From contig NZ_FQTQ01000126.1 in the NCBI RefSeq assembly GCF_900128525.1, positions 1 to 64,000 on the forward strand: DNA of 64,000 nucleotides, in the 5' to 3' direction. Below are positions 4,121-60,170 of the stretch, piece by piece. Position 1 is the first letter of the stretch; the number at the start of each line of letters is the position of its first letter. A program made the position numbers and the translations under genes. Under the pieces are notes generated by a model. It was not told where the DNA came from, did no database searches, and worked only from the letters and a program-made list of their open reading frames with translations. Origin of the DNA: a methanotrophic endosymbiont of Bathymodiolus puteoserpentis (Logatchev). Its GTDB lineage: Bacteria; Pseudomonadota; Gammaproteobacteria; Methylococcales; Methylomonadaceae.

Positions 4121-5842
4121 TTAGCTGATATAAAACTGACGCATCATCCCTAAATCTTCATGCTCTAAATTATGGCAGTGATATAAAAACAAGCCTTTAT
4201 AATCTTGGAATGGCTTAGCGATAACAATCTCTTCACCTGGCATAACTAAAACAGTATCTTTCCAGCCAGTATCAAGAAAGCCCTCTTTTACCGTTTTATA
4301 CTCTTCTTGGCGCATGCCTTCAATCTCTCTAGATAACACTTGAAATTGCTGACCATGCAAATGAATCGGGTGTGCCATGGACATCATCATTCCTCCGCCC
4401 ATGCCCCCCATCATTCCCATACCTCCCCCCATGTTCATATTACCAGCGGACATATCCTTATCCATTTTTTCGCCCTCTTTCATCTTCATTGATCCGTGGT
4501 CATGGAAAATCTTAATTTTCTTAATTGAACCAAGTTCAACCTTTTCAAAATCCAGCACGCGGTTCATAGAAAACGACTTACCATTTAATTGGGGGCGCAT
4601 CGGTTTCATAGAAATACCAATAGGAATCGGTTTATTTTTATAATCGACATCACGCTCAGTTAAACGCTCAAATTGCCCTAATGTTTTCGGTAATTTAGGT
4701 GAATCACTGACTTTTTCAGTCACTTTAAAAGTAGCTATTGGAAATTTATCACCCTGACCTAGGCGAGAACCCATCATTCCCATCATACCGCCGCCCATCA
4801 TTCCACCCCCCATGCCCATACCGCCAGAAGATTTTTTACCCAAGCGCTGTGCTTCCATTTTAGGTGGCATAGCGCCTTCATAAGGCAGACTATACATCAC
4901 TAATTCAGAGCCAACAGCATGACCACTAAAGTCTAGCCATAAGTCAATCCGCTCACCGGGTGCCAGCATTAAATAAGGACGAGTTTCTGGTTTTGGCAAA
5001 AGATGAGCATCTGTACCAATCGCAGTTAATGGCGTACCATCATCCCAACCTAATTTATAAATTCTGGAGTTAGAACCATTTACCGCTCTAAAACGATAAG
5101 CCCGTGATTTCACAAAAAATTCAACATTTGGCAGGCCATTAACTAAAATACTTTCACCTAAAAAGCCAGTCATTCTGCCGTGCATACCATGTAAATACTG
5201 CAGTTGGTTTTGCGCATTAAATGTTCTATCCTGAATCACAAAGGGTAGGTCATATTCACCTCGCGGTAAATCTAATTTCTGCTCTTCTTCATCAGTCACC
5301 GTAATCATGCCTGCTAAACCTTTATAAACCTGCTCAGCCGTTAGATTATGCGAGTGCGAATGATAAAAGCTCGTCCCCGCATGATTCATAACTTCAAATT
5401 CATAAATATGACTTTGACCTGGCGCTAAAGTATACATCGGGTGACCATCACTATCCTGCGGTACATGTAAACCATGCCAATGAATAATGGATGGCTCAGA
5501 CATCATATTTTTATAATAAATACGAACTTTTTGACCTTTTACATAATTAAGTATGGGGCCTAAATAATTGCCTTTTAATTCTACTAGTGTATTTTTAGGT
5601 CCTTTTAATAGTTTCGCATAATATTTCTGTACTTTTGTTTTCCTACCTGTCTTTAAAATAGACACATAAACATCGCGTGAAACAAATTCAATTTCTACAT
5701 CTGCTTTAAAATTAGGTGTCGCTTTTTTTCTTAATGGACCAGATTGAGCAAGTAACACTCCAGGGAAAGTCGTTAGTGCCGCGACACCAACAGCAGAATT
5801 TTGTAAAAATTGACGTCTATTATTATTTATTTTTTTCGTCAT
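4121..5842 (-). CDS. Met-rich multicopper oxidase (CueO/CopA-like), Tat-exported
   Basis: Probable periplasmic copper-tolerance oxidase that oxidises Cu(I). The 573-residue protein starts with a twin-arginine signal (NNNRRQFLQ, residues 6-14, then a hydrophobic stretch ending LLA). All four copper motifs are present: HWHGLH at 121-126, HSHSH at 161-165, HPIHLHG at 491-497 and HCHNLEHEDLGMM at 555-567, giving the type 1 Cys556 and axial Met. Two methionine/glycine-rich runs stand out, at about 341-358 and 466-489; the second directly abuts the HPIHLH copper ligands. Such segments in CueO/CopA bind Cu(I), so a copper role is favoured over a laccase or spore-coat role. The gene stands alone on this strand; no copper ATPase or regulator is adjacent. 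Confidence 0.85.
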   Translation of the reverse strand: MTKKINNNRRQFLQNSAVGVAALTTFPGVLLAQSGPLRKKATPNFKADVEIEFVSRDVYVSILKTGRKTKVQKYYAKLLKGPKNTLVELKGNYLGPILNYVKGQKVRIYYKNMMSEPSIIHWHGLHVPQDSDGHPMYTLAPGQSHIYEFEVMNHAGTSFYHSHSHNLTAEQVYKGLAGMITVTDEEEQKLDLPRGEYDLPFVIQDRTFNAQNQLQYLHGMHGRMTGFLGESILVNGLPNVEFFVKSRAYRFRAVNGSNSRIYKLGWDDGTPLTAIGTDAHLLPKPETRPYLMLAPGERIDLWLDFSGHAVGSELVMYSLPYEGAMPPKMEAQRLGKKSSGGMGMGGGMMGGGMMGMMGSRLGQGDKFPIATFKVTEKVSDSPKLPKTLGQFERLTERDVDYKNKPIPIGISMKPMRPQLNGKSFSMNRVLDFEKVELGSIKKIKIFHDHGSMKMKEGEKMDKDMSAGNMNMGGGMGMMGGMGGGMMMSMAHPIHLHGQQFQVLSREIEGMRQEEYKTVKEGFLDTGWKDTVLVMPGEEIVIAKPFQDYKGLFLYHCHNLEHEDLGMMRQFYIS

Positions 5843-15786: not shown

Positions 15787-16131
15787 TCACTGCACCTTGC
15801 CCAACAAATAATCCAGCCAACTTGCTGGTAAAATTCGTTTTAAAAAGCCAAATAAATACGTAGGAAAAGTGACATAGTAGCGAATTTTAGGGCGTTTCGA
15901 TTGCATGGCATGAATAACTTTTTCCACCACGGCATCAGCTGGTAAAGTAAACGGGGCAGCGGGGCCTTTCTTTTGTAATCGCGCTTCCATCGCTAAATAA
16001 GTATTTTTATGAACACTGTTAGCTGAATCTATGTTTTTTTGATAAGCAACAAAAGCATTTTTTCTAAAGTCACTACTAATCGGCCCTGGTTCAATCAGTG
16101 ATAAATGAATATTGCTGCCTTTTAATTCCAA
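15787..16131 (-). pseudogene. 3' fragment of a short-chain dehydrogenase gene, copy A
   Basis: Encodes the last 113-114 residues of the same SDR protein found at 20377-21045: it opens at ELKGSNIHLSLIEPGP and runs to the natural C-terminus LPASWLDYLLGKVQ. It lacks the cofactor-binding and catalytic parts (TGxxxGIG, YxxxK), so it cannot be an active enzyme. It differs by a few residues from copy B (19750-20094), for example Val for Ala and KVQ for QVQ, so it is the older or independently drifting copy. Immediately beyond its 5' end lies the same IS-end mosaic as beyond copy B. Confidence 0.85.
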
Positions 16132-16133
16132 AG

Positions 16134-16417
16134 ATCAAAAGGGTCAGACTCTAATACTGCTTACTTAAGGAAAATCCATTAATAATCAATGATCTGCGAC
16201 TATCAAATGGCGAGTAATAATTGATTTATTTTGATATGGAATAAATAGTCAACAACTTACAGCGAGTAAGCCCGTTATTATTTCATTAGGTTAATTGTAA
16301 AATGTTGATTTTAGTGCCTTCCAAGAAAATTTCAAGATTGCCTTTTTAGTAACTTCTCATTATCCACAGGCAATTATTTAAAAGTTGTTTTACAATATAT
16401 TCTATGAACTCGCCTAA
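16134..16417. mobile_element. Mosaic of IS ends: IS4-B left end plus IS66 left end
   Basis: Starts GATCAAAAGGGTCAGACTC and matches the left end of the IS4-family element IS4-B (same sequence at 18161-18260) for about 110 bases. It then runs through about 100 bases found only here and in the second mosaic, and ends with the first 69 bases of the IS66 element (16349-16417), including its terminal repeat and the ATGAACTCGCCTAA start of the transposase. The whole block recurs at 20096-20380. It carries no gene. Confidence 0.8.
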
Positions 16418-16418
16418 A

Positions 16419-16784
16419 GAGATGAATTCCGCTATTGCAAATAGCTTTTTGCTGAACAGCCCGAATAATGCATTGGACTGCTATTTTTTAATTCTTTTTT
16501 CGAAACCGATGGATTTTCATTGCGATCACCCATAAAGCTTCCTTTTTTTACTCATTTTCACCCATTATCCCTGTTTTTAGAGCAGACAATTGCCTTGAAC
16601 AAATAAGGTTAGATTGTGATCGCGAAGCGAGCCACAATCTGAACCATTTGTTGGACAAGCCCGGTTTACCCTTTGAGATGAATTCCGCTATTGCAAATAG
16701 CTTTTTGCTGAACAGCCCGAATAATGCATTGAGCTTCTATTTTTTAATTCTTTTTCCGGAAGTAGGTGGATTTTCATTGCGACT
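16419..16784 (+). repeat. Direct repeat pair of about 110 bp
   Basis: The sequence starting GAGATGAATTCCGCTATTGC occurs at about 16419-16528 and again at about 16675-16784, with differences mainly in the second half. Between the copies, AGATTGTG (16611-16618) and CACAATCT (16633-16640) form a small palindrome. No gene is present in this stretch, which separates the first IS-end mosaic from the nested IS4 elements. Confidence 0.7.
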
Positions 16785-16809
16785 ATCGAAAATCAAAGGG
16801 GTCAGACTC

Positions 16810-18149
16810 TGAGGTATCCCCATAAAACATCACTATAAAACAATAAGATACATTGTGTTTTTGTTTTATTAAAAGCAAGGTAGCGTTAAAATGGAGCTTC
16901 TCTTCAGGAAATTTGCTAATAGGTGAGCCTTATGTCGATTATTAAAACCTTGCATACTTTGATAAAACAGTCTCTCCCTGACATTCATGCCGCTAGACTC
17001 AATGCCCTAATGGCTGCGGTTGAATCGGGGTTGACCGGTGCATCCGTGTCAATTACTTCACTGGGTCGAGCTGTTTCTGGGTCTGCGTTTATAAAGCATA
17101 AGATAAAGCGCATAGACCGATTAGCTGGAAATCGCCACCTTAAATCGGAACGTACGGCGCTGTACGGCATTATGACGCAGTTTTTGTTAAAATCTCTTCC
17201 TTTACCCCTAATTATTGTTGACTGGTCACCGCTGACTGATGATCAAAGCCAGCAACTCTTGCGAGCCTCGCTTCCTGTTGGTGGACGCTCCATCACCTTA
17301 TATGAGGAAGTTCATCCAGATAGTAAACTGGGGAATCGCCGTGTACAGCACCAATTCTTAGCTCACTTACAAAAACTATTACCACAGCACGTCATACCTA
17401 TCATAGTTGCGGACTCTGGATTTCGAACTCCGTTTTTTCGGGAAGTTGGTCGCTTGGGCTGGCATTGGTTGGGGCGGATTCGAAATCCGAGATTTTATCT
17501 CCCTTAGCAGTACTCCCTGTGAGTGGTTTTCGGCAAAATTATTGTATGCAAAAGCTACTCGTAAAGCCAAATTATTAGGCACGGCCAATTGGGTACGTAG
17601 CAACCCTTTGCTTGGTGAGTTGGTCACTTTTTATCGACCTGCGAAAGGCCGAAAACATTTTACAACCCAAAAGAAAACAGCAAAATCCAAACAAAGTCGC
17701 CAACAAGCCAAACGAGAAAAAGAGCCGTGGCTGCTAGTTGTATCACCTTCTTTACAAGCCTATTCAGCAGTTCGTGTTGTGAATTATTATCGAGCTAGGA
17801 TGCAAATAGAGGAGGGCTTTCGTGATACTAAGAGCTTTCATTATGGATTAGGGTTGGCGCGTGAAAGCCGGATTGAAGCCGAACGCAGGGCAAACCTTTT
17901 GCTGATTGCGGCCCTTATCATTTTTGCACTTTGGCTTGTAGGTCTCAGTATAAAAGGCTCTGCTATCGAACGACAGATTAGAGTTAATAGTAGCTCAAAA
18001 TACTCACCGTATTCAGTTATCTTTCTCGGAAAAATAGCATGCTGCTATGCATCATTTGAAATGCCGGATGATTATTTGGACTTGGCGCAGACGTTATTAA
18101 CGGGCTATTTTGAAACTCTGGAAAAAGGATAATTTGTGGGGATACCTCA
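16810..18149 (+). mobile_element. IS4-family element IS4-A nested in IS4-B
   Basis: A 1340-bp element with matching ends TGAGGTATCCCCA at 16810-16822 and its complement at 18137-18149. It is flanked by an 11-base direct duplication, GGGTCAGACTC at 16799-16809 and GGGTCAAACTC at 18150-18160 (one mismatch), within the 10-13 base range usual for IS4-family insertions. It has landed about 11 bases inside the left end of IS4-B. Confidence 0.85.
16932..18132 (+). pseudogene. IS4-family transposase of IS4-A, frameshifted
   Basis: DDE transposase. ATG at 16932 with AGGTGA five bases upstream is preferred to the GTG at 16923. The first part runs to a TAG at 17505-17507 and contains VDWSPL (first Asp) and VADSGFRTPFF (second Asp). 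The rest continues in another frame, from RDFISLSSTPCEWFSA to the stop at 18132, with the YRARMQIEEGFRDTK signature carrying the catalytic Glu. Removing one C at AATCCGAG (about 17490) joins the halves smoothly (GRIRN then RDFISL). Either a disabling single-base insertion or, less likely, a programmed shift. Confidence 0.8.
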
Positions 18150-18257
18150 GGGTCAAACTCTAATACTGCTTACTTAAGGAAAATCCATTAATAATCAATG
18201 ACCTGCGACTATCAAATGGCGAGTAATAATTGATTTATTTTGATATGGAATAAATAG

Positions 18258-19570
18258 TCAATTTTTCAATTCTCCTACCTTCCTTTTTCTGATATTTTAT
18301 CCACGGATGCATTAGATCTAATTATTGAACATTCAGAGAGTAGCAGGGACCGTATTTTTACTCCTTTAGTCACACTCAAAGCGTTTATTTTTCAAGTACT
18401 CAGTACTGACGGCTCCTGCAGGCAGGCGGTTAATCATGTTCTTTCTGAGCGGCTATACGAAGGCAAACTTGCTAATTCAATTCAGACAGGTGCTTATTGT
18501 AAAGCTAGACAGAAGTTGCCTCAAAAGCAGTTAAAACAGGTCGTTGAGTCGTCAGGGCAAGCATTGCATCAACAAGCGCATAAATCATGGTTATGGAAAG
18601 GACATAATACTTTACTTACCGATGGAACCACTGTGCTGATGCCTGATACACAGGAAAATCAGATCGATTACCCTCAGCAGTCCAATCAAAAACCTGGCTT
18701 GGGTTTTCCTATTGCACGAATTGTCGGACTGATTTCATTGAATGTTGGCTCAGTTGCTTCTTATGCCATGGGAGCATTCCAGGGGAAAGGGAGCGGAGAA
18801 ACCTCATTATTTAGTCAAGTGATAGGGGTAATTGCCGAAAATGATATATTATTAGCAGATAGATATTACTGCACATGGGCGATTATTGCACTGATAATGC
18901 AGCAAAACTCGCATATATTGGTTCAAAATCACGCACAGCGCAAACCAGACTTTCGCCGTGGCAAAAAGCTGGGAGCAAAAGATCACCTTATTGAATGGGA
19001 AAAGACTAAACGAAAGCCAGGCTGGATGACTCAAAGCGATTACGATGCCTTGCCCAACAAAATCGTATTTAGGGAGTTCTCCGTAAAAGGTCGTGTCTAT
19101 GTAACAACGCTAATAGATGCAAAAAAATATCACAAACAAGAACTTGCAGAGCTTTACACGCAGCGATGGATAGTTGAGCTTGATTTTCGCAGTCTTAAGA
19201 CTCACATGAAAATGGAGATGTTACGTTGTAAATCTCCCGACATGGTCAGAAAAGAAATAGCCGTATACCTATTAGCTTACAACCTTATTCGAGCCAGTAT
19301 AGCGAGGGCTGCCAAGGTAAAAAACAAATTCCCAGAAAAAGTAGTTTTATGACGACTGTACAAATTTTTAATGAAGGTATCTTGTCATTAATCGTTCTTT
19401 CGGGAAAGGGATTGAAGTATGCTATTGGTGGATTATTGAACGCAATTGCTTCTATACCTATTGGTCAACAGAAAAGGAAGCCGGAGCCTCGTGCTGTAAA
19501 ACGCCGCCCAAAATCTTATCCACAGCTTAAAAAGCCACGCAATAAAGCACGTGAAGCCATTAATTCATAA
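18258..19570 (+). pseudogene. IS4-family transposase of IS4-B, 5'-truncated and frameshifted
   Basis: A frame open from just after a TAG at 18255-18257 encodes DILSTDALDLIIEHSESS, GSCRQAVNHV and TGAYCKARQKLP, the N-terminal domain of this transposase type, but offers no ATG or good start there; the first internal start (TTG 18516) falls after that domain. Catalytic blocks LTDGTTVLMPDT, ADRYYC and YTQRWIVELDFRSLKT are intact. At the A-rich site near 19335 the frame shifts by one base, and the final 73 residues (from MTTVQIFNEG, 19349) read in the next frame to 19570. It is very probably inactive. Confidence 0.75.
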
Positions 19571-19633
19571 GGTATTTCCCTTAAGTAAGCAGTATTAGAG
19601 TCTGACTCCCTTGGCTTCCCCCTTGGTTTTCTA

Positions 19634-19723
19634 AGCCCTCTCTTGTTGGAGAGGGCTGGGTTAGAAGAGTAAAATCATGCATTTATAATTCCCCTCATCC
19701 CAACCTTCTCCCTTTGGAGAAGG
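19634..19723. repeat. Two short REP-like hairpins
   Basis: AGCCCTCTC/GAGAGGGCT (19634-19642 with 19649-19657) and CCTTCTCC/GGAGAAGG (19704-19723) are simple hairpins of a kind scattered in many proteobacterial intergenic regions. They separate the right end of IS4-B from SDR fragment B. Confidence 0.55.
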
Positions 19724-19749
19724 AGCTTATTCTTAAGTCAACAGCATTG

Positions 19750-20094
19750 TTACTGCACCTGACCCAACAAATAATCCAGCCAACTTGCTGGTAAAATTCG
19801 TTTTAAAAAGCCAAATAAATACGTAGGAAAAGTGACATAGTAGCGAATTTTAGGGCGTTTCGATTGCATGGCATGAATAACTTTTTCCACCACGGCATCA
19901 GCTGGTAAAGTAAACGGGGCAGCAGGACCTTTCTTTTGTAATCGCGCTTCCATCGCTAAATAAGTATTTTTATGAACACTGTTAGCTGAATCTATGTTTT
20001 TTTGATAAGCAGCAAAAGCATTTTTTCTAAAGTCACTGCTAATCGGCCCAGGTTCAATCAGTGATAAATGAATATTGCTGCCTTTTAATTCCAA
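19750..20094 (-). pseudogene. 3' fragment of the short-chain dehydrogenase gene, copy B
   Basis: Encodes the C-terminal 113-114 residues of the SDR protein, ending LPASWLDYLLGQVQ. Its first 177 bases (19919-20095) look identical to 20381-20557, inside the upstream part of the gene, so the coding sequence is duplicated rather than simply split by the insertion. It contains the true 3' end of the gene that starts at 21045. It has no cofactor or catalytic motifs of its own. Confidence 0.85.
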
Positions 20095-20095
20095 A

Positions 20096-20380
20096 GATCA
20101 AAAGGGTCAGACTCTAATACTGCTTACTTAAGGAAAATCCATTAATAATCAATGATCTGCGACTATCAAATGGCGAGTAATAATTGATTTATTTTGATAT
20201 GGAATAAATAGTCAACAACTTACAGCGAGTAAGCCCGTTATTATTTCATTAGGTTAATTGTAAAATGTTGATTTTAGTGCCTTCCAAGAAAATTTCAAGA
20301 TTGCCTTTTTAGTAACTTCTCATTATCCACAGGCAATTATTTAAAAGTTGTTTTACAATATATTCTATGAACTCGCCTAA
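20096..20380. mobile_element. Second mosaic of IS4-B and IS66 left ends, splitting the SDR gene
   Basis: A 285-bp copy of the mosaic at 16134-16417: IS4-B left end, about 100 unique bases, then 69 bases of IS66 left end (20312-20380) ending CTCGCCTAA. It sits between the two copies of a 177-bp SDR segment (19919-20095 and 20381-20557), and its last bases supply the TAG stop (20377-20379, minus strand) that ends the broken SDR frame. Confidence 0.8.
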
Positions 20381-21045
20381 GCAGCAGGACCTTTCTTTTG
20401 TAATCGCGCTTCCATCGCTAAATAAGTATTTTTATGAACACTGTTAGCTGAATCTATGTTTTTTTGATAAGCAGCAAAAGCATTTTTTCTAAAGTCACTG
20501 CTAATCGGCCCAGGTTCAATCAGTGATAAATGAATATTGCTGCCTTTTAATTCCAAACGCAATGTATCAACTAGTCCTTCTAGCGCATACTTACTGGCGT
20601 TGTACGCGCCACGATAACTCATGGCAACAAAGCCTAAAACTGAACTATTATAAATAATGCGTCCGCCACCTTGAGCGCGCATTAAGGGAATAATCAAATT
20701 AGTCAGTTCATGCGTACCGAATAAGTTAGTTTCAAATTGCGCACGTAAAACCTCACGACTCAAATCTTCTACAGCGCCAGCCTGGCCAAATGCACCATTA
20801 TTAAATAAACCATCGAGTTTACCGTCGGTCATTCCTATTACCTGCTGAACAGCATTGATAATGCTAGCACTATCGGCCAGATCTAACTGTACTGTTTCAA
20901 AGCCTTCTTTAATCAGGCGCGCCACGTCAGCATCTTTTCTAGCCGAAGCAATCACTCGATAACCCTGTTCTTTTAACATAACAGCTGCCCGATAACCTAT
21001 ACCTGTTGAACAACCAGTGATTAATATAGTTTGCATTTTTGTCAT
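20377..21045 (-). pseudogene. Short-chain dehydrogenase/reductase, 3' end displaced by IS debris
   Basis: Classical SDR oxidoreductase, probably acting on a lipid or retinol-like alcohol or ketone (YbbO-like), substrate unknown. The retained 222 residues contain the NAD(P) motif TGCSTGIG (10-17), the NNG segment, the catalytic Ser in YNSSVLG and the YNASK Tyr/Lys pair, so the active site is intact. Translation stops right after KKGPAA in the inserted mosaic; about 55 native C-terminal residues (PFTLPADAVVEK... to the end) are encoded only in copies A and B. The intact length would be about 278. A truncated product could fold, but loss of function is more likely. Confidence 0.8.
20381..20557. 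repeat. 177-bp direct repeat within the SDR gene (partner 19919-20095)
   Basis: Both copies start GCAGCAGGACCTTTCTTTTG and end TTTTAATTCCAAA and look identical throughout. They flank the 285-bp IS mosaic. A 177-bp duplication is far too long for a transposition target duplication, so it points to recombination or template switching. The third, diverged copy is in 15955-16133. Confidence 0.85.
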
Positions 21046-22537: not shown

Positions 22538-22608
22538 TGTAAATATCTTTACCCTTGAATTATTTTCTGTAAAATCGCAAATAATTCAATAATACACGTA
22601 ACTTCTCA

Positions 22609-22617
22609 TTATCCACA
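22609..22617 (+). promoter_or_regulatory. Perfect DnaA-box sequence in IS66 left end
   Basis: TTATCCACA, the strongest consensus DnaA box, lies inside the left terminal repeat of the IS66 element, 72 bases after the dnaA stop. Whether DnaA binds it is unknown; the match is exact. Confidence 0.5.
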
Positions 22618-22652
22618 GGCAAATATTAAAAAATTGCTTTACAATATATTCT

Positions 22653-24230
22653 ATGAACTCGCCTAAACCGAAACTGCCAGAGATAAATGAAGAAGATCGC
22701 ACGCCGCTAGTGGATGTGTTGTTGGAAATACTTGCCTGGCAACAAAAGCAGATTGATAAGTTAGAGCAAGAAATACTCAAACTAAAAGGCGAAACCACAA
22801 AGCCAGACATTAAACCCAGCTCAATGGATAAAGGCGGGAGCTCAGAAAATGATGCCCCCTCTTCAAAAAAGAAAAAAGGACCGAGGCGCAGTAAAAAAGG
22901 GAATCTAATCATAGATGAAACCCACATTATTCAGCCAGATGAAATCCCAAACTCACGCTTTAAAGGCTATCAGGAACGTGTTATTCAGGATATTACCTTT
23001 CAAACACATAACATTTGTTATCGTTTGGCAGAATATACAACCCCAGAGGGGCTTACGATTGTAGGTCAGCTTCCCGATGGCATTCAGGGAGGTAGCTTTG
23101 GTAACAACCTGATTGCCTTTATTCTCTATCAATACCATCATCAGCATGTCACACAGCCCTTGCTCCTGGAACAGATTCGAGATTTAGGTGTTGATATTTC
23201 GAGCGGCAAGCTCAGTCATATACTCACAGAGGATCTGGATGATTTTCATGCTGAAAAAGATGAATTACTGAGGACGGGGTTATCCGTTTCTCAATATATT
23301 CATACCGATGATACGGGCGCACGGCATAAAGGGGAAAATGGCTATTGCACCCACATTGGCAACGAATTTTTTGCCTGGTTCAGTAGTACAGAAAGTAAAA
23401 GCAGAATTAACTTTTTAAACTGTCTCTCACAAGGTAAAACAACGCTTTATACCTTGAATACAGGTGCCATTGAGTATATGGCACAAAACAAGCTCCCCGT
23501 TGCCCTATTAGCGATACTGGAAAATATCAGTGTCCGTATTAACACAGCATCCGACTGGTGCGAATGGATGGATCAGCAAGGCATTGTTAAACCTCGGCAC
23601 AGAAAAATAGTCACGGAAGGGGCTTTGATGGGAGGACTGCTAGACCAAGGCATTCCCTCTGACTTTTCAATCATCAGTGATGATGCCGGACAGTTTAATG
23701 TCTTTGACCATGCCTTGTGCTGGATTCATGCCGAACGCGTGATTAATCGTCTCATTCCTTTAAATGATGATCACGTCAAGGCGGTCGGTGAGGCACGAGA
23801 ACAGCTTTGGTCGATTTACCATGACCTGAAGGCTTATAAATTGAACCCTGTCACCGAACAGGCGGACAGTATCAGGCAACATTTTCAAACCTTATGTAGT
23901 ACCAAAACCTGCTACGAAACGCTTAATCAGGCTCTCAAACGGATGGGAGAAAATCAACATGAACTCCTCCGTGTACTCGATAAACCCTACCTCCCGCTTC
24001 ATAATAATTTAAGTGAACGAGACATAAGGGATTACGTTAAAAAACGAAAAATCAGTGGAAGCACCCGAAGTGATGCAGGACGGAAAGCCAGAGATACTTT
24101 TGCCAGTCTAAAAAAGACCTGTCGAAAGCATGACTTATCATTTTGGGATTATTTGAAAGATCGCTTATTGGGTGTAGGCGATATTTCTCCGTTATCGGAA
24201 GTCATCCGTGCGGCCGCTGCCTGTGGATAA
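22653..24230 (+). CDS. IS66-family transposase (TnpC type)
   Basis: A 525-residue DDE transposase that moves the surrounding element. The N-terminus holds a short leucine-zipper-like coiled coil (about 25-47) and a Lys-rich linker (KKKKGPRRSKKG). The core contains the family blocks LPDGIQGGSFGNNLIAFI, HTDDTGARHKGENGY (first catalytic Asp region), SDDAGQF with CWIHAERVI, and NNLSERDIRDYVKKRK (catalytic Glu region). The frame is intact and its stop lies just inside the right terminal repeat. The start ATGAACTCGCC is also preserved in the two truncated ends elsewhere in the window. Confidence 0.93.
   Translation: MNSPKPKLPEINEEDRTPLVDVLLEILAWQQKQIDKLEQEILKLKGETTKPDIKPSSMDKGGSSENDAPSSKKKKGPRRSKKGNLIIDETHIIQPDEIPNSRFKGYQERVIQDITFQTHNICYRLAEYTTPEGLTIVGQLPDGIQGGSFGNNLIAFILYQYHHQHVTQPLLLEQIRDLGVDISSGKLSHILTEDLDDFHAEKDELLRTGLSVSQYIHTDDTGARHKGENGYCTHIGNEFFAWFSSTESKSRINFLNCLSQGKTTLYTLNTGAIEYMAQNKLPVALLAILENISVRINTASDWCEWMDQQGIVKPRHRKIVTEGALMGGLLDQGIPSDFSIISDDAGQFNVFDHALCWIHAERVINRLIPLNDDHVKAVGEAREQLWSIYHDLKAYKLNPVTEQADSIRQHFQTLCSTKTCYETLNQALKRMGENQHELLRVLDKPYLPLHNNLSERDIRDYVKKRKISGSTRSDAGRKARDTFASLKKTCRKHDLSFWDYLKDRLLGVGDISPLSEVIRAAAACG
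24222..24230 (-). promoter_or_regulatory. Perfect DnaA-box sequence in IS66 right end
   Basis: TTATCCACA on the minus strand, within the right terminal repeat and overlapping the last codons of the transposase. It mirrors the left-end box 1.6 kb away. Confidence 0.45.
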
Positions 24231-24260
24231 TGAGAAGTTACTAATACACTAGGCAAGCAC

Positions 24261-56589: not shown

Positions 56590-58065
56590 ATGAAGAATAA
56601 AAAAACATTCAAACCTTGTGATCTTGTGATTTTTGGCGCGCTGGGAGATTTAGCAACGCGTAAATTGTTGCTTTGTTTATATCAGCTAGATAAAGCCAAT
56701 TTACTTGAGCCTGATACTAAAATTATTGGCGTGGATCGCTTTGCAGATGAGGGTAATTTGTTGCTTAAAGCGGCGAATACTTGTTTAGAGAAGTTTTTAA
56801 AAGAAGAGCGTGACCTGTTAGTGTGGGAGCGATTTTCGGCGCGTATGAGTTATCTACAAATGGATTTAACTCAGCCAGATGAATATAAACAGCTAGCTAA
56901 GGTTGTTGATAAAGAAAAGCGCAGAATGATTAATTATTTTTCTGTCCCTCCTTTTTTATTTAAAGCGATTTGTCAGGGCTTAAAGTTATCCGGTGCGTTA
57001 ACACCTGAGTCACGCATGGTTATGGAGAAACCGATTGGTTACGATCTGGAGTCATCTAAGGAAATTAATGATGCGGTAGCAGATGTCTTTACGGGTGATC
57101 AAGTGTGTCGTATTGATCACTATTTAGGCAAAGAAACCGTATTAAATTTATTGGCACTGCGTTTTGCTAATTCATTATTTATTACTAACTGGGATCACAA
57201 TACCATAGATCATATTCAGATTACCGTCGCAGAAGAAATAGGTATTGAAGGGCGCTGGGGGTATTTTGATCAATCTGGCCAAACGCGCGATATGATGCAA
57301 AATCATTTGTTACAGATTTTGACTTTTATTGCTATGGAGCCACCAGTTAGCCTAGATGCAGATAATATTCATTATGAAAAAATAAAAGTTTTAAAAGATT
57401 TGCGTCCCATTACCGTAGAAAATGTTGCTGATAAAACCGTGCGTGGTCAATATGCCGCGGGGCAGATTAAAGGGGCTGCTGTACCAGGTTATACAGAGGA
57501 GGAAGGCGCTAATACGGAAAGTGGCGCAGAAACTTTTGTTGCGGTTAGGGTTGATATCGATAATTGGCGGTGGGCGGGCGTGCCTTTCTATTTACGTACA
57601 GGTAAACGGTTACCTGCAAAGCATTCAGAAATAATTATTCAATTTAAAGCGTTACCGCATAATATTTTTAAAGACAGTTTTGAACAATTACCTGCGAATA
57701 AGTTAAGTATTCGTTTGCAGCCAGATGAGGGGGTTGATGTTGAAATTTTAAATAAAATCCCAGGGATCGACGAGCGCATTAAGGTGCAGGAAAATAAGCT
57801 GGATTTGAGTTTTTCAGAGGCATTTAAAGGGAGTCATATTGTCGATGCTTATGAGCGCTTATTATTGGAAGCGATGCGCGGTCATTCGACTTTATTTATA
57901 AGCCGTGAAGAGATAGAGCAGGCGTGGACTTGGATTGATTCTATGCAAAATGCTTGGCAACAAACGCAAGATACACCGCAACCCTATCCTGCAGGCACGT
58001 GGGGGCCGGATGCTGCGACGACTTTACTGGCGCGTGATGGCCGTGAATGGGAAAATGATATTTAA
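56590..58065 (+). CDS. zwf: Glucose-6-phosphate 1-dehydrogenase
   Basis: Oxidises glucose 6-phosphate to 6-phosphogluconolactone, generating NAD(P)H for the Entner-Doudoroff and pentose phosphate routes. The 491 residues have the coenzyme motif FGALGDLATRKL near the start, the substrate and active-site signature RIDHYLGKE near residue 177, and the usual second domain with RTGKRLPAKHSEI. Upstream of edd and eda in the same direction; a mobile element now separates it from edd. pgl (lactonase) is not in the window. Confidence 0.96.
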   Translation: MKNKKTFKPCDLVIFGALGDLATRKLLLCLYQLDKANLLEPDTKIIGVDRFADEGNLLLKAANTCLEKFLKEERDLLVWERFSARMSYLQMDLTQPDEYKQLAKVVDKEKRRMINYFSVPPFLFKAICQGLKLSGALTPESRMVMEKPIGYDLESSKEINDAVADVFTGDQVCRIDHYLGKETVLNLLALRFANSLFITNWDHNTIDHIQITVAEEIGIEGRWGYFDQSGQTRDMMQNHLLQILTFIAMEPPVSLDADNIHYEKIKVLKDLRPITVENVADKTVRGQYAAGQIKGAAVPGYTEEEGANTESGAETFVAVRVDIDNWRWAGVPFYLRTGKRLPAKHSEIIIQFKALPHNIFKDSFEQLPANKLSIRLQPDEGVDVEILNKIPGIDERIKVQENKLDLSFSEAFKGSHIVDAYERLLLEAMRGHSTLFISREEIEQAWTWIDSMQNAWQQTQDTPQPYPAGTWGPDAATTLLARDGREWENDI

Positions 58066-58174
58066 GGTGGTAACTTATCATGGTTGGAGTTTTTTGTTAG
58101 GCCTGTGTTGCTGTATAATGGCGCGCATAAAACGTAATAATATAGTTTATTTGTTACTTTTACAGTAACTTTAT

Positions 58175-58306
58175 GTAACTTCTCATTTATTTACAAGTAT
58201 TTGAGACATTTACGTTATAGCGTAGGATGTGCTGAGGCACGAAGCGCATCGTTCCTCGGTACATCCTAAAACACGCTTTAAGTACCTGTTAAAAATGAGA
58301 AGTTAC
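58175..58306. mobile_element. 132-bp MITE with IS66-type ends
   Basis: Both ends match the IS66 element's terminal repeat for 13 bases (GTAACTTCTCATT left, its complement right); the inverted repeats continue imperfectly to about 30 bases. It is flanked by an 8-base duplication AACTTTAT at 58167-58174 and 58307-58314, the IS66 hallmark. Internally, AGGATGTGCTGAGG and CCTCGGTACATCCT form an imperfect hairpin. It carries no gene. It has inserted between zwf and edd so that its right target duplication directly abuts the edd AGGAAG site (58315-58320). Confidence 0.9.
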
Positions 58307-58325
58307 AACTTTATAGGAAGATAAT

Positions 58326-60170
58326 ATGCATTCAGTCGTAGAAAAAGTCACTCAACGAATCATAGAGCGTAGTCATGTCGTGCGTAGCTTATATTTAAAG
58401 CACATTGATAAAGCCGCAGAAGATGGGCCGCACCGTTCTACTCTCGCATGTGGAAATTTGGCGCATGGTTTTGCTGCCTGTAGTACCGGCGAAAAAGCAG
58501 ATTTAACAGAGAATAAAAAAGCGAACATTGCGATTATTTCTTCTTATAACGATATGCTGTCTGCACATGAACCCTATAAAGATTCTCCTGCTTTAATTAA
58601 AGCCGCAATTAGAGAGGCAGGCGGTGTCGCTCAGTTTGCGGGCGGCGTGCCGGCTATGTGTGATGGAGTGACACAAGGTCAGCCGGGCATGGAGTTATCA
58701 TTATTTAGTCGTGATGTGATTGCTATGTCTACCGCGATTAGTTTGAGCCATAATATGTTTGATGGTGGTTTGTATTTAGGGGTTTGTGACAAGATTGTTC
58801 CAGGCTTACTACTGGGTGCTTTGAGTTTTGGTCATTTGCCAGCGGTATTTGTGCCATCTGGCCCGATGACCAGCGGTATTACCAATAAAGAAAAAGCGAT
58901 GACGCGCCAGTTATATGCAGAAGGTAAAATTGGCCGTAAAGAATTACTAGAATCAGAATCAAAATCTTACCATAGCCCTGGTACTTGTACTTTCTATGGT
59001 ACAGCGAATAGTAACCAGATGATGGTTGAGATTATGGGTCTACATCTTCCAGGTAGTTCATTTATCAACCCGTACACACCTTTACGTGATGAGCTGACTA
59101 AAGAAGCGGCTCGCCAAGTGCTTAAATTCACTAAACTCGGTGATGATTACCGCCCATTAGGTCGTGTGATTGATGAAAAAGCGATTGTGAATGCGATTGT
59201 TGGTTTACTAGCAACGGGTGGCTCAACTAACCATACCATGCATATTGTTGCTATTGCTCGTGCGGCAGGTATTGAGGTGAATTGGGATGATTTTAATGAG
59301 TTATCACATGCTGTACCTTTATTGACGCGTGTTTATCCAAACGGCCAAGCTGATATTAACCATTTCCAAGCTGCAGGTGGTATGAGCGTGTTAATTGCTG
59401 ATTTATTGCGTGGCGGTTATTTACATAATGATGTTATGACCATCGCTAATAATCGCGGCATGGGAGATTACTCGCAAGAACCTAAAATCATTGGTGGTAA
59501 ATTGACCTGGCAAGAAGGTCCTGCTAAGTCATTAGATGAGACGGTGATCGGCTCTTTAGAAAAGCCATTCGCAGCGAGTGGTGGTTTGCATGTTATGCGG
59601 GGTAATTTAGGGCGTGGTATTTCTAAAGTATCTGCGGTTGCTGAGGAGCATCAAGTTGTTGAAGCACCTGCTTTAGTTTTTGATGACCAAGATGATGTGT
59701 TGGCTGCATTCCATCGTGGTGAGTTAGAACGTGATTTTATTGTGGTACTACGCTTTCAAGGGCCTAAATCGAACGGCATGCCTGAATTACATAAATTAAC
59801 GCCAATATTAGGCCTGTTGCAAGATAGGGGGTTTAAAGTCGCTATCGTAACAGATGGGCGTATGTCCGGCGCCTCCGGTAAAGTTCCTTCGGCGATTCAT
59901 ATGTGTCCTGAATGTGAAGATGGCGGACCATTAGCAAAAGTACGCGATGGCGATATGATTGTTTTAAATACGCAAACGGGTGATGTGAATACTTTGGTTG
60001 ATGAGGCTGAATTTAATGCACGTAAACCTGCCGCAAATACTGCGAAAGATCATCACTGGGGGATGGGGCGTGAAATGTTCGGCGCTTTCCGTGTGGGCGC
60101 TTCTTCTGCAGAGACGGGAGCAGCGAATTTATTCGATGAAACTAACCTTTATTGCCGTATAAAAAAATAA
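58326..60170 (+). CDS. edd: Phosphogluconate dehydratase (Entner-Doudoroff)
   Basis: Dehydrates 6-phosphogluconate to 2-keto-3-deoxy-6-phosphogluconate (KDPG). The 614 residues have the IlvD/Edd iron-sulfur features ([20 protein letters not shown] and [15 protein letters not shown] supply cluster cysteines, [15 protein letters not shown]) and the C-terminal [20 protein letters not shown], with full family length. The AGGAAG site lies five bases upstream of the ATG, just after the MITE target duplication. It is followed 37 bases later by eda. Confidence 0.96.

Follow-up and report, generated by a model that had tools for sequence, protein, structure and literature searches.

In the 64,000 nucleotides analysed here (the window), a 132-bp element is inserted in the leader of edd, and this element is a hybrid: its ends are of the IS66 type, and its core is a palindrome of the REP/REPIN type. 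MITEs and REP/REPINs are treated as separate classes of elements that depend on different enzymes, DDE transposases for the former and HUH/Y1 transposases for the latter. How can one element come to carry both? We consider it probable that the hybrid was mobilised in trans and that it is now transcribed as a hairpin within the edd leader. The insertion as such is ordinary; what is unusual is that the same ends are found around different repeat cores in related species, and it is in these different cores and in the hybrid build of the element that the greater interest lies. The features of the locus, and of the resident IS66-type element in the same window, are as follows.

22598-24241, forward strand: full-length IS66-type element, 1644 bp, with 24-bp terminal inverted repeats (TIRs) and the target site duplication (TSD) TAATACAC; PF03050 match
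56590-58065, forward strand: zwf, glucose-6-phosphate dehydrogenase (TIGR00871, 591 bits, above cut-off)
58090-58119, forward strand: conserved promoter-like site, a T-run/TTGTTA region followed by TGTATAAT at 58112-58119, from alignments of edd upstream regions of Methyloprofundus relatives
58167-58174, forward strand: left TSD AACTTTAT, a single copy in the two sister species (L031, L032)
58175-58306, forward strand: hybrid MITE, 132 bp, IS66-type ends and REP core, delimited by TIRs, TSD, genome copies and empty site
58175-58188, forward strand: left TIR GTAACTTCTCATTT, its first 13 nt equal to both ends of the 22598-24241 element
58222-58250, forward strand: GTAG-type REP GTAGGATGTGCTGAGGCACGAAGCGCATC, a 29-mer with identical copies on either side of a RAYT gene on contig C151
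58246-58268, reverse strand: second REP half, inverted and shortened, forming a REPIN-like palindrome with the first
58293-58306, reverse strand: right TIR, a perfect inverted repeat of the left one
58307-58314, forward strand: right TSD AACTTTAT, identical to the left one and directly adjoining the ribosome-binding site
58315-58320, forward strand: AGGAAG, ribosome-binding site of edd, kept in the sister species
58326-60170, forward strand: edd, 6-phosphogluconate dehydratase (TIGR01196, 1016.8 bits, above cut-off)

The insertion and its empty site

A first-pass annotation had described a 132-bp element with IS66-type ends and an exact 8-base duplication, the right copy of which touches the AGGAAG of edd within the zwf-edd intergenic leader. 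The coordinates proved to be exact: the two duplications are identical, and the right one ends where AGGAAG begins; edd, with its ATG at 58326, is the gene whose leader holds the element. The TIRs are perfect over 14 bp (arms 58174-58188 and 58293-58307, 100% complementary). The element contains no ORF, and Rfam gave nothing beyond a chance match of 18 bits, below the gathering threshold of 56. Short, non-coding and bounded by TIRs, it has the features of a MITE.

The source genome is a relative of Methyloprofundus, and edd was searched throughout the genus. A match was obtained in 15 of 18 genomes, and the element lies upstream of edd only in the present one. The two nearest species, with edd proteins of 97% (L031 = G013) and 96% (L032 = G011) identity, have a clean empty site, where the leader reads TTTACAGTAACTTTATAGGAAGAT and AACTTTAT occurs once; when the flanks are joined across the element, 111 of 120 and 109 of 121 positions, respectively, are identical to these leaders. 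This comparison of species supports a recent insertion, and relatives do not share the element as part of a conserved leader. The best explanation is that the insertion dates from after the split of this lineage from its sister species. It was also observed that a small hairpin, GTTACTTTTACAGTAAC (58150-58174), stands just 5′ of the ribosome-binding site in the empty-site edd leaders, with similar sequences in several relatives; the insertion point is within its 3′ arm, and the duplication restores it.

A MITE family and a resident IS66-type element

As had been expected from a genome search, the element has further copies. BLAST of a 148-bp query against its own genome gave 75 matches, many of which cover only the palindromic core, and the pattern of TIR, gap and TIR matched exactly five times, as against none for a reversed-pattern control; the element is thus no product of chance. 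Paired ends reveal about 15 further diverged copies of 84-152 bp. Among the family copies, gathered by searches and from stretches of the genome, five carry exact 8-bp duplications (GTCTATTA twice in L002, AAAATAGG twice in L003, CGTTGTAA twice in L011, ATTTTTCT twice in L015 and AATTTGTT twice in L028), and several others have duplications matching at 6-7 of 8 positions. The copies sit between genes, in all orientations; no ORF of at least 80 amino acids holding one was found among the family copies in the genome.

Where would a transposase for such copies come from? In the resident element, one ORF (22653-24230) is present, and its transposase matches PF03050 (E 3.2e-19), scoring 136.8 against the NCBIfam IS66 model, below the cut-off of 180. 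The genome has this element twice in full length, and many pieces of it stand at the ends of contigs. The edd MITE shares its ends with this autonomous element over 13 nt, and other MITE copies do so over up to 22 nt (GTAACTTCTCATTATCCACAGG). It has the 8-bp duplication and a GTAA start; its first nucleotides are not the canonical GTAAGCG, being instead GTAACTTC, a sequence shared exactly with the ends of the resident element that matches PF03050. Ends, duplication and resident element all support the assignment as an IS66-type MITE. The resident element is the likely source of the mobilising transposase, which would have inserted the non-autonomous element in trans into AACTTTAT. Because the ends of the edd copy match over only 13 nt, it could in fact have been moved by a related element of the IS66 type, itself unseen.

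Two other observations concern the IS66-type element. Its other full copy lies further along the contig (G000:C126:73305-74951) between flanks that differ, AGCCTTTA and CAATTTCA; this points to an assembly join or to recombination between copies. Near dnaA, 15787-20557 contains three occurrences of pieces of a short-chain-dehydrogenase-like gene, at 97-100% identity, accompanied by IS fragments and, at 16349 and 20312, by the left end of the IS66-type element over 70 bp; this region is a rearranged, IS-associated duplication.

The core of the element

The element had been called IS66-derived. This holds for its ends, which match the resident element, and fails for its interior, which is a REP/REPIN of a RAYT system. 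The 29-mer has 35 genome copies at up to 3 mismatches, and the reversed control has none. On contig C151 (L218), one REP (5174-5202, forward) and another (5812-5840, reverse) flank an ORF at 5248-5784 on the reverse strand, whose 178-amino-acid product scores 201.6 bits against NF047646, the NCBIfam model of REP-associated tyrosine transposases (cut-off 80). The core, although not the element as a whole, thus shows what is expected of a GTAG REP/REPIN: a tagged, dispersed, imperfect palindrome and a repeat flanking a RAYT gene. Its palindrome arms, 58223-58245 and 58246-58268, are 83% complementary. Full-length members of the family have as their core an inverted doublet made up of two REP variants, each of which also occurs beside the RAYT gene; about 19 nt of this doublet are missing from the edd copy. 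Since the interior 29-mer also flanks a RAYT gene, we regard the element as a hybrid of IS66-type ends and a RAYT-type core, and the IS66-type ends would at some time have captured the latter.

Both IS66-type ends accompany 11 of the 35 REPs at up to 3 mismatches per end, and 15 of the 35 at up to 4, compared with 3.8% of random positions; because copies are related by descent, these figures are not a count of independent events. A search for the element matched in 25 of 41 genomes, the source genome included, and outside the latter, among the matches listed, only the core was covered, without IS66-type ends. Could the edd element then simply be a REPIN moved by the RAYT, its IS66-like ends being incidental? 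The core is indeed exactly the REP that flanks the RAYT gene. This reading is contradicted by the empty site, at which the boundaries are IS66-type TIRs with an 8-bp duplication and not the edges of the REP, and by the exact 8-bp duplications at the TIRs of several other copies, and we think it highly improbable.

What the insertion may do to edd

Across the genus, the DNA upstream of edd retains TGTATAAT (in a few cases TGTATAGT), usually preceded by TTTTTGTT and mostly at about 50-120 nt from edd, and it does so also where the place of zwf before edd is taken by a TRAP-transporter gene or by some other sequence. This conservation points to an upstream promoter, the -35 of which is weak or atypical. 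The element lies between this site and the ribosome-binding site. Since it is downstream of the conserved promoter-like site, it is most likely transcribed as part of edd's own 5′ leader, and since relatives keep the site, some of them without an adjacent zwf, edd is probably independent of read-through from zwf. In several relatives zwf is not adjacent to edd, and immediately upstream of edd (L034, L036) stands the TRAP-transporter binding-protein gene which in the window comes before zwf.

It had been proposed that the element might cut zwf-edd co-transcription or supply a promoter, and so change Entner-Doudoroff flux. Blocked read-through or a new promoter, either of which would rewire edd, would suit the position between the two genes, and a scan of the region gave two weak promoter-like sites, with 9 of 12 matches and one on each strand. 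Such sites are at chance level (1.2 expected), and no terminator-like site was found in the element, so both a promoter and a terminator within it were rejected; moreover, the upstream promoter-like site is kept in species where zwf is not adjacent. Separation of edd from zwf by the element is therefore unlikely, and an altered Entner-Doudoroff flux from the insertion is speculation.

The proposal of a hairpin added to the leader fared better and was borne out as a structure prediction: the single-strand fold of the element has -57.6 kcal/mol (z = -10.1), and none of 200 shuffles was as good. When transcribed, the element would fold into one long hairpin ending 8 nt before AGGAAG, which in the predicted fold of the whole leader is outside the main stem. 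Nothing indicates selection on the RNA fold as such, because compensatory changes are too few: across 11 copies they are two-sided in only 3 of 46 pairs, with an unfavourable covariation term (+1.72), and selection on the RNA structure was rejected on this ground.

Is the element then neutral passenger DNA, in a leader whose length is not critical, with the ribosome site untouched and edd expression unchanged? We take this as a serious possibility, if somewhat short of even. AGGAAG and the upstream promoter-like site are intact after the insertion, the other copies are intergenic in all orientations, and in two relatives (L349 and L350) the promoter-like site is further off, with edd leaders about 150-200 nt longer and unrelated sequence before AGGAAG. 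Against it, a leader hairpin of this predicted stability seldom leaves mRNA processing wholly unaffected, and RNase III cuts Correia elements in the equivalent position (PMC2649163). Returning to the transcribed hairpin as a source of some effect, that effect would be post-transcriptional because the hairpin would be transcribed beside an unblocked ribosome site; translation would still be possible, and the effect would be limited to mRNA processing or stability, of the RNase III type. Such an effect on the leader, probably modest, is the most likely one by analogy with mtrCDE, where a Correia element lies downstream of the native promoter, is part of the transcript and is a target of RNase III cleavage (PMC2649163).

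The first-pass annotation was right on the insertion, its type and its position, and its regulatory proposals, except for the added hairpin, mostly find no support in the sequence.

Different cores in related species

Related species carry the same IS66-type ends around other palindromes, and many of these elements have 8-bp duplications. In G017, with 23 exact-end copies, the ends enclose GGAACGCAGG...GCCTGC palindromes; in G006, a GTACGGGC palindrome; and in G048, a species from outside the genus, a palindrome with CACAAAGGCACGAAGGACACGAAG (CACAAAGG). In G008, G010, G013 and G014 they enclose CGTC-type REP doublets, a class assigned here by the CGTC tag and the palindromic doublet and not by match to the published consensus. 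G013 is also one of the sister species with the empty edd site. Two G008 elements (L281 and L282) have no such palindromic core, so the core is common but not obligatory.

To what extent do these palindromes exist apart from the MITEs? Most of the CGTC doublets examined in G008 are outside IS66-type ends, and the CGTC repeat there is therefore not simply a MITE relic. Some of them (L342 1480-1600, L332/L337) seem to be flanked by other inverted repeats, in L342 for example GTTTACACTTT...AAAGTGTAAAC, as if other MITE families also carried CGTC doublets. The only relative of the G017 core that was found is a palindrome in the source genome, on C206, beside a RAYT-like gene scoring 64 bits, below the cut-off of 80. 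In the family sample, neither the G017 nor the G006 core turned up outside MITEs in any other genus, and for this reason their case as independent dispersed repeats is weaker than that of the GTAG and CGTC types.

It might be that IS66-type ends in Methyloprofundus repeatedly captured different palindromes, and that DDE-type MITEs are thus a RAYT-independent vehicle for REPs, those of the CGTC type included. We put this forward tentatively, and at present lean against it. Nested elements with differing cores in related species do suggest that MITEs can carry dispersed palindromes along with them. In the open-licence literature, we found no paper describing IS66-ended elements with REP cores.

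Comparison with known systems

IS66 elements have ends that begin with GTAA and an 8-bp target duplication (PMC11946415). The edd element shares both features, and the resident transposase shares PF03050; on the other hand, the inverted repeat of the edd element runs on with CTTCTC where the canonical one reads GTAAGCG, and the resident element has a single ORF in place of the multi-ORF layout and a sub-cut-off family score. Unlike IS66-derived MITEs, the edd MITE has an interior that does not derive from the resident element. With the GTAG-type REPs and REPINs of RAYTs (PMC2817692, PMC3733652, PMC3116915) the core has in common the GTAG tag and imperfect palindrome, the inverted doublet and the flanking of a RAYT gene. 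It differs in that the doublet lies within DDE-transposon ends and would have moved in a larger unit with an 8-bp duplication.

The Correia elements of Neisseria (CREE/NEMIS) offer a functional analogy, being inverted-repeat elements of 100-150 bp that can lie between promoter and gene in a leader, although their ends and core are unrelated to those of the edd element. The edd locus is suited to the study of what a MITE does in a leader, as the insertion there is natural and clean and the sister species retain the empty site. CGTC-type REPs, finally, have been reported without a dedicated transposase (PMC3733652); similar palindromes form the cores of IS66-ended MITEs in the four species named above, though not of the edd element, and hitchhiking on MITEs is a testable answer to the question of how such REPs are dispersed when no transposase is dedicated to them.
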